Positions 10,466-31,124 of a stretch of DNA of 64,000 nucleotides are shown piece after piece; positions within the stretch are counted from its first letter, which is position 1; every line of letters starts with the position of its first letter. The notes beneath the pieces were generated by a model, which did no database searches, was not told where the DNA came from, and worked only from the letters and a program-made list of their open reading frames with translations. Both the position numbers and the translations under genes were made by a program. Origin of the DNA: an uncultured Thermomicrobium sp. (GTDB lineage Bacteria > Chloroflexota > Chloroflexia > Thermomicrobiales > Thermomicrobiaceae); the NCBI GenBank assembly GCA_938028665.1, contig CALIMB010000033.1:1-64000 (forward strand), given 5' to 3'.

Positions 10466-11917
10466 ATGACCAGCAGTGCAGAGGGTCGGTGGCTGGGCGG
10501 AAAACTCTCGCGGCGGGCACTTGTTCGCCGGATGGTGCTTGGTGTGGCGGCGCCCGTCGTAGGTGGGCTGCTGGCAGCCTGTGCGGGTGGGCAGGCGACG
10601 CCAACAGCTGCGCCGCAGCCGACACCAACTGCTGCCCCGGCGCAGCAGCCGACACCGACAGCGGCAGCAGCGGTGACACCGGCAGCGGCAGGCACGCCGA
10701 CGGCGACGCCGGTGGTGCTCAAGGGGACCAAGCTCAACATTCTTTTTGGGACGTTCTTCGTTCCCGAGACACAAGATCTAATGAAGCAGCAGCTGCAGGA
10801 GTTTGGCAAGGAAACTGGGGTCGAGGCGACGATCGACTTCATCAATTGGCCGGACTTGCAGCCGAAGATCAGTGCTGCGGTGCAGGCTGGCGCTGGTCCG
10901 GACATCGTCGGTATGTGGGATACCTGGCCATCGTTGTATAAGGAGGCACTCGTCGATGTCCAGGACATCGTGGAGAAGCGCATTAAGGGAGAGGGAGACT
11001 ACTTCGATTGGGTGAAGAAGACGGTTCTTGTGGGTGATCAGTGGCTGAGCATTCCGATTGGTGCGCCAACCAGCGCGCAGGTTTTCCGGAAGAGTGCGCT
11101 GCAGCAGGCGGGGTGGCCGGATCCGACGAATCCCCCGGATACGTGGGAAGATCTTTTCAAGGTTGGCGTCGAGATGAAAAAGAACGGCATGCCGCTCGGC
11201 CAAGCCTTTGGTCACTCGACTGGTGATCCGCCGTCGTTCTGCTATGCCTTCATGTGGGCTTATGGTGCGATGGAGGTGGAGGCCGATGGGAAGACGGTCG
11301 CCTTTAACAAGCCGCAATTTGTCGAGGGGATGAAGCTCTTTTTGAGTTACTGGAAGCAGGCATTTGACGAGACTGGACTCTCCTGGGACGATGCGACCAA
11401 TAATCGGGCGTTTCTGGCGGGACAGATTGGGTGGACATTTAACGGGAGCAGTATTTATATCGCCGCGTTGAAGCAGGCTCCGGACATTGCGGAAGATATC
11501 ATTCACCACATCTTTCCAAAGGGGCCAGCGGGACGCTTTAACAACTTGGGTAGTTGGTCAGTAGGTATCCTCAAGTATTCAAAGAACATCGCCGGTGCAA
11601 AGGCATTCCTTGAATGGTGGACAGCACCGGAGCAGTTCCGGAAGTGGCTGGAGATTCAAAAGGGCTATCAGGTGGCGCCGACGGCATACTACCTGAATGA
11701 TCCGTATTACCGGTCGGATCCCAAGCTGGTTCCGTATGTCGAGGCAGCCAAGTATGGGCGGAACAAGGGGTATGCTGGACTCGGCAACGAAAAGGCAGCC
11801 GAGGTCTTTGCCCGCTACATCGTGGTTGACACGTTTGCGCGCGCGATCCAGTCGGGGAACGCAGAAGAAGCGATCCAGTGGGGTGCCAGCGAGCTGCAGA
11901 AGATTTATGGAGCGTGA
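10466..11917 (+). CDS. ABC transporter extracellular sugar-binding lipoprotein
   Basis: Twin-arginine-like SRRALVRRMVLG signal with lipobox LLAAC, Thr/Pro/Ala linker, family 1 SBP body (EWWTAPEQFRKWLEIQKGYQVAPT); followed by two permeases. Confidence 0.9.
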   Translation: MTSSAEGRWLGGKLSRRALVRRMVLGVAAPVVGGLLAACAGGQATPTAAPQPTPTAAPAQQPTPTAAAAVTPAAAGTPTATPVVLKGTKLNILFGTFFVPETQDLMKQQLQEFGKETGVEATIDFINWPDLQPKISAAVQAGAGPDIVGMWDTWPSLYKEALVDVQDIVEKRIKGEGDYFDWVKKTVLVGDQWLSIPIGAPTSAQVFRKSALQQAGWPDPTNPPDTWEDLFKVGVEMKKNGMPLGQAFGHSTGDPPSFCYAFMWAYGAMEVEADGKTVAFNKPQFVEGMKLFLSYWKQAFDETGLSWDDATNNRAFLAGQIGWTFNGSSIYIAALKQAPDIAEDIIHHIFPKGPAGRFNNLGSWSVGILKYSKNIAGAKAFLEWWTAPEQFRKWLEIQKGYQVAPTAYYLNDPYYRSDPKLVPYVEAAKYGRNKGYAGLGNEKAAEVFARYIVVDTFARAIQSGNAEEAIQWGASELQKIYGA

Positions 11918-25797: not shown

Positions 25798-25895
25798 CCC
25801 GGGAAAAGGAAAAGGTGAACAGATTCGAGCAGATTTGACAGCATCGAGTAGAAACTGAAGACGAGATATCGACGGGAAAGGACCCAGAAGCGACC

Positions 25896-27587
25896 GTGGC
25901 GGCGGGGTTTCGCGTGGGTACAAGAGGGAGCGTGCTCGCGCTCGCTCAAGCAGAACGGGTCGTGGTTGCGCTCGAACGTGTCGCTCCGGAACAGCGGTGG
26001 ACCATTGTCCCCGTGGTGACTACTGGTGACCGCGATCGGGCGACCTCGCTGACCATCCTGGGTGGGAGTGGAGTCTTTGTGAAAGAGCTCCATGAAGCGC
26101 TCCTCGTCGGGGAAATCGACCTCGCGGTACACAGTGCGAAGGATCTTCCCACACACCTTCCCCGTGGCTTGCAGCTGGTGGCCGTCCTTGGTCGCGACGA
26201 TGTGCGGGACGTTCTTGTCAGCCGATCGGGAGCGACACTCGCGACACTGCCGCCCGGAGCGCGAATTGGGACGAGTTCCCGGCGTCGCCGTGCGATGGTC
26301 ACGGCACTGCGACCGGATATCGCACTCGAGGAGGTGCGGGGAAATGTCGACACGCGTCTGCGCAAGCTGGAGGAAGGAGTTGTTGATGGGCTGATCTTGG
26401 CAGCGGCTGGTCTCGTGCGACTTGGGCGAGTGGACGTCATCACTGAATATCTCGATCCAGACATCTTTGTCCCCGCTCCTGGTCAAGGGGCCCTGGCGCT
26501 GGTTTGCCGAGCCGCCGATCCGGTGGCGGCGATCGTTGCACAGCTCGACGAGCCAGATCTGCATCTTGCTGTGGCTGTGGAACGATCTTTCCTTGGAGCA
26601 TTCGGTAGTGGATGTTCCTTGCCGCTGGGCGCTTATGCCACCGTAGCGCATGGGAGAGTGACGCTTCGTGTGGCCGTCGCGGCAAGCGAGCGGAGCCCCC
26701 TCCTGCGTCGCCAGGCGTCGTGGTTGGCCTCAGATGCGATAGAAGCAGCGGCCGCTCTGGCTCGGGAGATACAGGGTGAACTGGGAGGAGCGGAATCTTG
26801 GCAGCCGGGGAGGAGCACATTTCTGGCCGGACGGCGTGTCCTGATTTTGCGTCCGCTCGGGCAAGAGCGTGACCTTGTTGAGCGTTTACGTGCACTGAAA
26901 GCTGTACCCATTGTCGCTCCTGCAATCCGTATTGTTCCGCCTGATGACTGGGAACCACTAGATCGCGCTCTTGCAGAACTGGAACGATTTGATTGGGTGG
27001 TGTTCACCAGTGTCAACGGCGTCCGGGCCGTTCTCGACCGGTTGGTCATGCTTGGCCGATCTTTCGATGCCTTGCGAGCAGTACAAGTGGCTGCAATTGG
27101 CCCAGGGACAGCACGGGAGCTCACTGCACATGGGGTCACACCACGCCTGGTTCCGAGGACCTATGTTGCAGAAGCGTTGGCTGCCGACCTCATCGCTCGA
27201 AGCGTGGTCAATGCGCGGATTCTGCTCCCGCGAGCTGCCGAGGCGCGTGATGTCCTACCACGTGCTCTCGCCGAGGCGGGTGCCCACGTAGTCGTTGTGC
27301 CTGCGTATCGAACCCAGTATCTCCCCTTGCCAGAAGATGTTCGGCGGGACCTCATAAGTGGTCGGATTGATTGGGTACTCCTCACTGCGAGTTCAACGGT
27401 GCGAAGTCTCGTTGCGGCAGTTGGTGATTTTGCTCACGTGCCCAGCCATGTGCGGGTGGCGGCGATCGGCCCCGTGACGGCAGCCACGGCGCGCGAGTTG
27501 CATGTGCGGGTCGACGTCATTGCCGAGCGACAGACGATCGATGGAATAGTCGAAGCGATCGTACGAGCAGAAGGGAGTTCGCGGTGA
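25896..27587 (+). CDS. fused porphobilinogen deaminase / uroporphyrinogen-III synthase (HemC-HemD)
   Basis: HemC motifs ([50 protein letters not shown]-like) then HemD domain ([35 protein letters not shown]); 563 aa. Confidence 0.93.
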
Positions 27588-28606
27588 GTGCTGAGGCTCT
27601 GCAGTTCCGTCGGTTTCGGCGTCTACGGCGGAGTGAGCATCTGCGGCGCCTCGTCCGAGAGACGCGCCTCAGCATCGAGGACCTGATCTACCCGTTGTTC
27701 GTCGTGCACGGTCAGGCCATTCGACGCGAGGTGCGGTCGATGCCTGGTGTCTACCAGCTGAGCGTGGATCAGTTAGGGCACGAGGCTGAGGAACTTCTGG
27801 AACTCGGAATTGGTGCGGTTCTTCTCTTCGGTATTCCAGCCCGGAAGGACGAACTGGCGAGCGAGGCATATGATCCGGACGGCATTGTGCAGCGGGCGAT
27901 CCGGGAGTTAAAGCGCGTCGCACCAGAGCTCATCGTTATCACAGACGTTTGCAACTGCGAATATACCTCACATGGACACTGTGGGATCGTCCGGGATGGG
28001 CAGATCCTGAACGATGCGACACTCGAGCTCCTGGCACGGGCTGCTGTGTCGCACGCCGAAGCTGGTGCTGACATGGTGGCGCCGTCCGACATGATGGATG
28101 GTCGTGTGCTTGCGATCCGGCGGGCGCTCGACCGGGCTGGGTTTTTGGAAATACCCATCCTCTCCTACGCTGCGAAATACGCGTCAGCGTTCTACGGGCC
28201 GTTCCGTGAGGCGGCCGAATCTGCTCCGGCATTCGGTGATCGCCGTTCGCATCAGATGGATCCAGGGAACCGCCGCGAGGCGCTACGCGAGATTGCAGCA
28301 GATCTTGAGGAAGGTGCTGACGCCATCATTGTGAAGCCGGCGCTTGCTTACCTTGATGTTGTTGCCGCAGCGCGGGAGCGCTTCGATGTGCCGATCGCGG
28401 CCTACAACGTGAGTGGCGAGTATGCGATGGTCAAGGCGGCGGCGCGTCACGGCTGGATCGATGAGCAGCGCGTCGTGCTCGAGATGTTGACGGGCATTCG
28501 CCGCGCTGGCGCGCAGATGATCCTCACCTATCACGCCAAGGACGTGGCACGCTGGCTGCGCGAAGGGCGGATCAGTACAGCACGTGCACCGGCTCTGGCT
28601 GAGTGA
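27584..28606 (+). CDS. hemB: delta-aminolevulinic acid dehydratase (porphobilinogen synthase)
   Basis: [16 protein letters not shown] metal motif, [50 protein letters not shown]. Confidence 0.97.
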
Positions 28607-28619
28607 TAGGGAGGAGTCG

Positions 28620-29906
28620 ATGATGCAATCAAGCACCCTCTGGGAGGCAGCCCAGCACTATCTTCCTGGAGGCGTGAACAGTCCGGTGCGCGCCTTCCGG
28701 GCCGTCGGAGAGGATCCACTCTTCATCGTTCGTGGAGAAGGGGCATACCTTATCGACGCTGATGGACAGCGATATCTCGATTTCATCTGTTCGTGGGGGG
28801 CGTAGCTGGCTGGACATGCTCACCCCCATGTTGTCGCGCAAATTACGGAAGTGGCGCGGAATGGCACAAGCTTTGGTTTGCCGACTCGGCAAGAGGTTGA
28901 ACTTGCTCGCACGATCGTTGAGGCGGTCCCGTCAGTCGAGCTGGTTCGCTTCGTCAACTCAGGGACTGAAGCGACGATGAGTGCGCTACGCCTGGCGCGG
29001 GCTGCGACTGGTCGTTCTCGTATTGTCAAGTTTGCAGGCTGTTACCATGGCCATGTCGATGCCCTGTTGGTGGCTGCTGGTTCCGGGATCCTGACATTCG
29101 GCATTCCTGGTACTCCGGGAGTAACGAGCGGAACAGCGAGCGAAACACTGGTTCTTCCGTACAACGATAGCGGGGCGGTGGAAGAGGCGTTCGCCCGGTA
29201 TGGTGAGCAGATCGCTGCGGTCATCGTTGAACCCGTAGCTGGAAACATGGGTGTGGTGCCCCCAGCTCCTGGATTCTTACAATGTTTACGCGAGGTGACT
29301 AGAAGAAGCGGTGCTCTCCTGATCTTTGATGAGGTCATCACCGGCTTTCGGCTTGGGTGGCAGGGCGCCCAAGGCAAGTACGGTATCGACCCGGATCTCA
29401 CCTGCTTTGGGAAGGTCATTGGGGGCGGGCTGCCGATCGGGGCTTATGGTGGGCGGCGTGACCTCATGCAGCAGATTGCGCCCAGCGGCCCGGTGTATCA
29501 AGCTGGCACCTTATCCGGAAATCCTCTTACCATGGCGGCCGGTCTGGCGACGTTGCAACTGGCCCGTCAGCCGGGAGCTTACGAGCGGCTTGAGGAGTTG
29601 GCTGCTCGCTTGGAGTCGGGCTTGCGCGAAGCTGTGCGGGCTGCTGGTGTTCCTGCGGTAGTGCAACGGGTCGGGTCGATGCTCACGCTCTTCTTTACCG
29701 ACACACCGGTGACTGATGCCCAGCAGGCCGAAACAGCGGACAGAGCACGTTTGGCGGCTTTCCACCGAGCGATGCGGGAACGCGGTATCTTGTTGCCGCC
29801 GTCGCAGTTCGAAGCATGGTTCCTCTCGCTCGCACACGAGGAGGCCGACGTGGAGCGAACGGTCGAGGCAGCAGGAGAAGCGCTCCGAGTGGTCGCACGG
29901 GGGTGA
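28620..29906 (+). pseudogene. hemL: glutamate-1-semialdehyde 2,1-aminomutase with in-frame TAG at 28803-28805
   Basis: ORFs 28584..28805 and 28851..29906 share one frame: [37 protein letters not shown]; the rest of HemL is intact (NSGTEATMSALRLARAATGRSRIVKFAGCYHGHVD, LLIFDEVITGFRLG). Confidence 0.9.
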
Positions 29907-29908
29907 GC

Positions 29909-31124
29909 ATGTCACTTGCGGTCGTAGCAATCACCCATCGAACGGCGCCTTTGACCATCCGAGAGCGGGTTGGCTTTTCACCAGACGAGCAGCTGGCGTG
30001 GCTCCGTGAATGGAAACGTGTGGCGCATGAGATCGCGCTCTTGGTGACATGCCATCGTACGGAGGTCTACTGGGTCGCTGCTGAACTAGGGACTGAGCGA
30101 GGACTTCGCTGGCTGGCGGGTGCTACTGGGCTTCCATTGGATGTGCTTGTTCCGGTTGCCTTGCAAGCTCAGGGAGAACAGGCTGTTCGCCACCTCATGC
30201 GGGTGACGGCGGGATTGGACTCGCGAGTCGTCGGGGAAACGCAAATTCTCGGGCAGGTCCGTCGGGCGCGGGAGTTGGCTCGGACTGCGGGAACCCTTGG
30301 TCCAGTTCTGGAACGGCTCTTTTCCTTAAGTCTTGCCGCCGGACGCGCTGCGCGCGCGTTCCGGTCTCGGTAGGGGTGGGCGGTCGCTCGCACGACTGGC
30401 GGTCAGCGCCGCTAGTCGCTGTCTGGGTGGGCTTGCTGGACGGGCTGTGCTGGTGCTTGGGGCTGGGGAGATAGGACGGCTCGTGGTGGCGGAACTGCAA
30501 CGCGAACGGCCGGCGGCGCTGTGGGTCAGTAATCGATCGGCTGAGCGACTGCGGGCGGTTGCTGGCGATGGTGATATCAGAGGGGTGGATTGGACAGGGT
30601 GGCCCGAATTGGTGGTTGAAGTGGACGCGATCTTTGTAGCGACTGCTGCACCAGAACCGATCCTCTACGCCAGTCATTTCGCTTCGCGTCGTCACCCCGG
30701 CGTTGTGGTGGATCTGGCGGTTCCTCGGAACGTGGACACTTCCGTGGCGCAGGTGGCAGGCATTCGACTTCTCACCGTCGATGATCTGGAGGATGAACCG
30801 GGGAGTTTCATAGCGGAGCCACTGATCGAATGTGCAGAGCAGATCGTGGAACGGTACGTCCGCCGGTATCTGCGATGGTGGCAAGCACGGCAACTGGCGA
30901 CGGAGATCCGATCGGCTCAGGCAGTGATCGAGGAGTTATGCCAACGCGAACTGCAACGCGCCTTTCGTCTCATGGTTCGCGATCCGCAGAAAGCAAAGGA
31001 GATCGAGCGTGAGGCGGCGGCAAGCGTTGCCCGGAAAGTGCTTGCCCCGGTTCTGGATTCACTTCACCAGGAGACTGATAGCGTAGCCACTGCGTTGCGT
31101 CTACTGGCAAGTGTTCAGCGGTAG
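29909..31124 (+). pseudogene. hemA: glutamyl-tRNA reductase split by a frameshift near 30350-30358
   Basis: N-terminal part in ORF ending 30373 (ALLVTCHRTEVYW, GLDSRVVGETQILGQVRRA...AAGRAARA), C-terminal part in ORF 30333..31124 (SGLGRGGRSLARLAV...VLVLGAGEIGRLVVAEL), shifted by +1. Confidence 0.9.

Follow-up and report, generated by a model that had tools for sequence, protein, structure and literature searches.

Interrupted hemL and hemA genes point to a probable recent loss of 5-aminolevulinate synthesis in an uncultured Thermomicrobium

Both steps of the C5 route from glutamyl-tRNA to 5-aminolevulinate (ALA) are interrupted in the assembled genome of an uncultured Thermomicrobium, since hemL carries an in-frame stop codon and the adjacent hemA a frameshift. 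A real and recent loss of ALA synthesis is favoured here, with moderate confidence, over assembly error as the explanation. In the proposed course of events, hemL would have been inactivated by a nonsense codon, very recently, in this Thermomicrobium lineage, and hemA by the loss of one GC unit from a short GC run. The other tetrapyrrole genes that were checked remain, and the cell should therefore need ALA, a later intermediate or heme from its neighbours. The lesions are plainly present in the assembly; their reality in the living cell, the order in which they arose and the auxotrophy are inferred.

The window, by which is meant the whole 64,000-nucleotide stretch analysed (C33:1-64000), comes from a genome of 2.78 Mb in 110 contigs that is 99.3% complete. 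It carries, in order on the forward strand, hemCD, hemB, hemL, hemA and then a glycosyltransferase gene. The nearest relatives compared include Bacterium HR28 (G006) and Thermomicrobium sp. CFH 73360 (G003), which show the same gene order and approximately 80% DNA identity across the hemL-hemA region; both genes are open in these two relatives, whereas both are interrupted in the window. Upstream, the hemC-hemD fusion (25839-27587) is intact, with PF01379, PF03900 and PF02602 in one frame of 582 amino acids, and HR28 and CFH 73360 each have an ORF of equal length. The hemB gene (27584-28606) is likewise intact (PF00490, E 1.5e-152).

The hemL gene, encoding glutamate-1-semialdehyde aminomutase (GSAM), spans 28620-29906 and matches TIGR00713 with 612.8 bits over positions 2-420, but a TAG at codon 62 (28803-28805) breaks the uninterrupted frame that a functional enzyme would have. 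In alignment with HR28, CFH 73360 and two further congeners (G001 and G002), this codon (SWGA-stop-LAGHAHP) replaces a leucine codon, which is CTG, CTC, CTC or TTG in the congeners. The genome search also found one TAG inside hemL, the same as that seen in the alignment, and the portion of the gene 3' of it scores 518.9, below the cut-off of 527.3. This second lesion lies upstream of hemA and was absent from the hemA item of the earlier note.

The hemA gene, encoding glutamyl-tRNA reductase (GlutR), starts at ATG 29909 and keeps its frame up to a 9-nt GC run, GCGCGCGCG, at 30350-30358. The N-terminal frame then reads ...LAAGRAARAFRSR and is ended by a TAG at 30371-30373, while the C-terminal frame (+1) reads ...SGLGRGGRSLARLAV... 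and terminates at the stop at 31122-31124. The 5' part (29909-30373) contains the catalytic domain (PF05201 GlutR_N, E 3.8e-40) and the 3' part (30360-31124) the NADPH-binding and dimerisation domains (PF01488, E 8.1e-28; PF00745, E 2.1e-9), the two halves being consecutive portions of the same protein (TIGR01035 positions 2-151, then 156-395). Their scores of 123 and 133.8 both fall below the TIGR01035 cut-off of 209.55, compared with 275.4 for the intact HemA of HR28, and the window therefore has no single open frame that unites the catalytic, NADPH-binding and dimerisation domains of a functional GlutR. When aligned to the same four congeners, the window proves to be 2 nt short at the GC run, and the loss of one dinucleotide unit is therefore the simplest hemA lesion. 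The position and size of the frameshift, and its explanation by loss of a single repeat unit, thus agree with what had been proposed from the sequence by the earlier note, and the canonical GlutR spacing expected on both sides of the site is seen in the congeners. A TTG at 30333 in the C-terminal frame was considered as a start and rejected, being only a codon that lies further upstream in the same frame.

The same note had also suggested that slippage in the run might be reversible, and here the comparison is unfavourable. The run is only 9 nt long and is absent from the four congeners aligned at the site; it occurs twice in the window, where 3.9 copies would be expected by chance, which led us to reject it as an unusual hotspot, and the second copy (11837-11845) falls within an uninterrupted ORF. 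A phase-variable hemA switch is unsupported, given that there is nothing unusual about the run and that hemL is interrupted too, so that restoring the hemA frame alone would not restore ALA synthesis.

Alternative sources of ALA were not found in the genome. There is a single GlutR_N match, with no second hemA, and one hemL above the cut-off, with no second canonical copy; class III aminotransferase paralogues score under the hemL cut-off, and similar ones occur in congeners. The genome search likewise found no ALA synthase (ALAS). No other ALA source, whether a second hemA or hemL or an ALAS, is thus encoded, as would be expected of an ALA auxotroph. Downstream, the HemB and HemC-HemD frames are open, HemE gives one strong match (424.8 bits) and HemH is present as a single open frame. 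Demand for heme is suggested by five genes for heme-copper oxidase subunit I (COX1), all of them open.

The interruption of hemA appears to be peculiar to this genome. In a search with the HR28 protein, HemA was found in 70 of 101 genomes, and an internal stop was present in the window genome only (the other 69 genomes with HemA had none). Two HemA matches, each in its own frame, came from a single contig of the window genome. Other double or partial matches were few, and lay on separate contigs or near contig ends. As would be expected of recent pseudogenes, the disabling lesions are thus absent from close relatives, in which hemL and hemA are open. Signs of relaxed selection are, in turn, lacking. 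Values of dN/dS on the window branch were 0.075 for hemL after the stop and 0.125 and 0.141 for the two hemA halves, similar to those of the intact neighbours hemB (0.086) and hemCD (0.145). Among alignment columns with at least 90% conservation in relatives, the HemA of the window differs at six positions, one of which is the masked lesion, compared with five and five in congeners, and HemL at two, compared with three and four. Purifying selection and the near-complete retention of conserved residues imply that the lesions are either very recent or artefactual.

The second of these possibilities, that ALA is made normally and that one lesion, or each of them, arose as a sequencing or assembly error (an indel in a dinucleotide run, a wrong base, or both), is the strongest competitor, and we consider it less likely but well worth taking seriously. 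It would account for the strong purifying selection and the lack of further decay in either gene, and for the retention of the downstream heme genes and of five oxidase subunit I genes; the assembly is, moreover, a draft in 110 contigs. The frequency of lesions elsewhere speaks against it. In a survey covering approximately 0.89 Mb of the 2.78 Mb genome against 1.27 Mb of HR28, approximately 390 aligned coding stretches, a count that includes some shadow ORFs, gave as clear lesions only those in hemL and hemA and one permease frameshift, and of the remaining flagged stops and frame breaks, most were judged from the alignments to be shadow ORFs or to lie upstream of the true start. A broadly error-rich assembly was rejected on this basis, with one other clear lesion in approximately 390 genes. 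That lesion, a single-base frameshift in a G run relative to HR28 (C2, approximately 32573), lies in a gene read from its sequence as an APC-type permease, and could be an error of a like kind. The hemL and hemA lesions are of different types and affect adjacent genes for the two steps of a single pathway; when three lesions were placed at random, two fell in neighbouring genes in approximately 1.5-2.5% of trials. In addition, a single substitution in hemL produces a stop in only 3.3% of cases, which makes a stop by random base error improbable. An error-rich patch yielding the hemL TAG should therefore also have damaged conserved residues, and none are changed in excess. These observations tip the balance towards real lesions, although isolated errors may still be responsible.

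Programmed or leaky recoding, in which a -2 slippage on the GC repeat or a +1 shift at CGG-TAG would yield some full-length GlutR, is very improbable. The 9-nt alternating run would allow codons to re-pair two bases back, with identical codons, and a hairpin is predicted at 30375-30437, just downstream of the hemA stop (-34.3 kcal/mol, z -2.1), but this is only weakly better than shuffled sequences. A programmed site would be expected to be conserved in relatives, but the aligned congeners are in frame and have neither run nor shift, and the other HemA-bearing genomes, as described above, have no internal stop. The +1 shift had already been thought unlikely in the earlier note, with which we concur, as its product (...AARAFRSR-RGGRSL) would be one residue short and would lack the SGLG segment. 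Recoding of hemA would, in any case, need a separate stop readthrough for hemL. More improbable still is a split GlutR, with the catalytic part and the NADPH-binding and dimerisation part acting as two cooperating polypeptides. The break does separate the Pfam catalytic domain from the NADPH domain, but a conserved junction segment is lost, and the next start in the C-terminal frame is GTG 30447, near the nucleotide-binding motif, so that the 3' fragment would be truncated; moreover, hemL is broken as well. Reassignment or suppression of the stop codon was rejected, as no tRNA with a CUA anticodon was present among the 42 tRNA matches, all of which were inspected, and no other convincing in-frame TAG was seen in approximately 390 genes.

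Recent loss of ALA synthesis is thus supported by the confinement of the lesions to this lineage, by the lack of a second copy or an ALAS and by the intact downstream genes. The distribution of these genes in more distant relatives, as we analyse it, may also be counted in its favour, since relatives in family f3 of the same order appear to lack hemA, and mostly canonical hemL, and yet keep hemB. In six of these (G022, G029, G031, G035, G037 and G040), whose genomes are 90-98% complete, HemB is kept, whereas GlutR_N gave no match and hemL none above its cut-off; in G043 (f3) and in G030 (f2), hemL is kept and hemA was not detected. Counted against loss are the low dN/dS, the conserved columns, nearly all of which are kept, and the 110-contig assembly. 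Two dead genes with no further decay require a narrow time window, and our confidence is held at a moderate level mainly because undecayed genes are also expected from an error.

Natural auxotrophs for ALA or heme with hemL lesions are known among clinical small-colony variants of Escherichia coli and Citrobacter freundii (PMC8018945). These variants share with the window a lesion in the C5 route and a largely intact downstream pathway, but their ALA requirement was demonstrated by rescue with ALA or heme, whereas that of the window is predicted from sequence. They are also clinical isolates with a hemL lesion, whereas the window, from an environmental thermophile, has two adjacent C5 genes hit. 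Heme auxotrophy in uncultured lineages is on record for Chloroflexota and for hot springs (PMC11139205; Kim et al. 2021, cited there). In those lineages the loss of heme synthesis is made up for by neighbours, as in the dependency proposed here; they were, however, recognised by having less than half of the pathway, whereas in the window the ALA-forming steps alone are broken and their genes are still present.

If the lesions were to prove assembly errors, they would serve as a warning against calling auxotrophy from one draft genome. The relatives that lack hemA and keep hemB raise the further question of where their ALA originates. Tentatively, the window may come from an aerobic thermophile that is losing ALA synthesis alone, with its heme pathway and five oxidases persisting on ALA or intermediates from neighbours, and the f3 relatives may represent a later stage. 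If real, the loss would constitute a natural and very young metabolic dependency, formed at one precise point of entry to the pathway, and would predict a simple supplement, ALA or heme, for cultivation of the organism.
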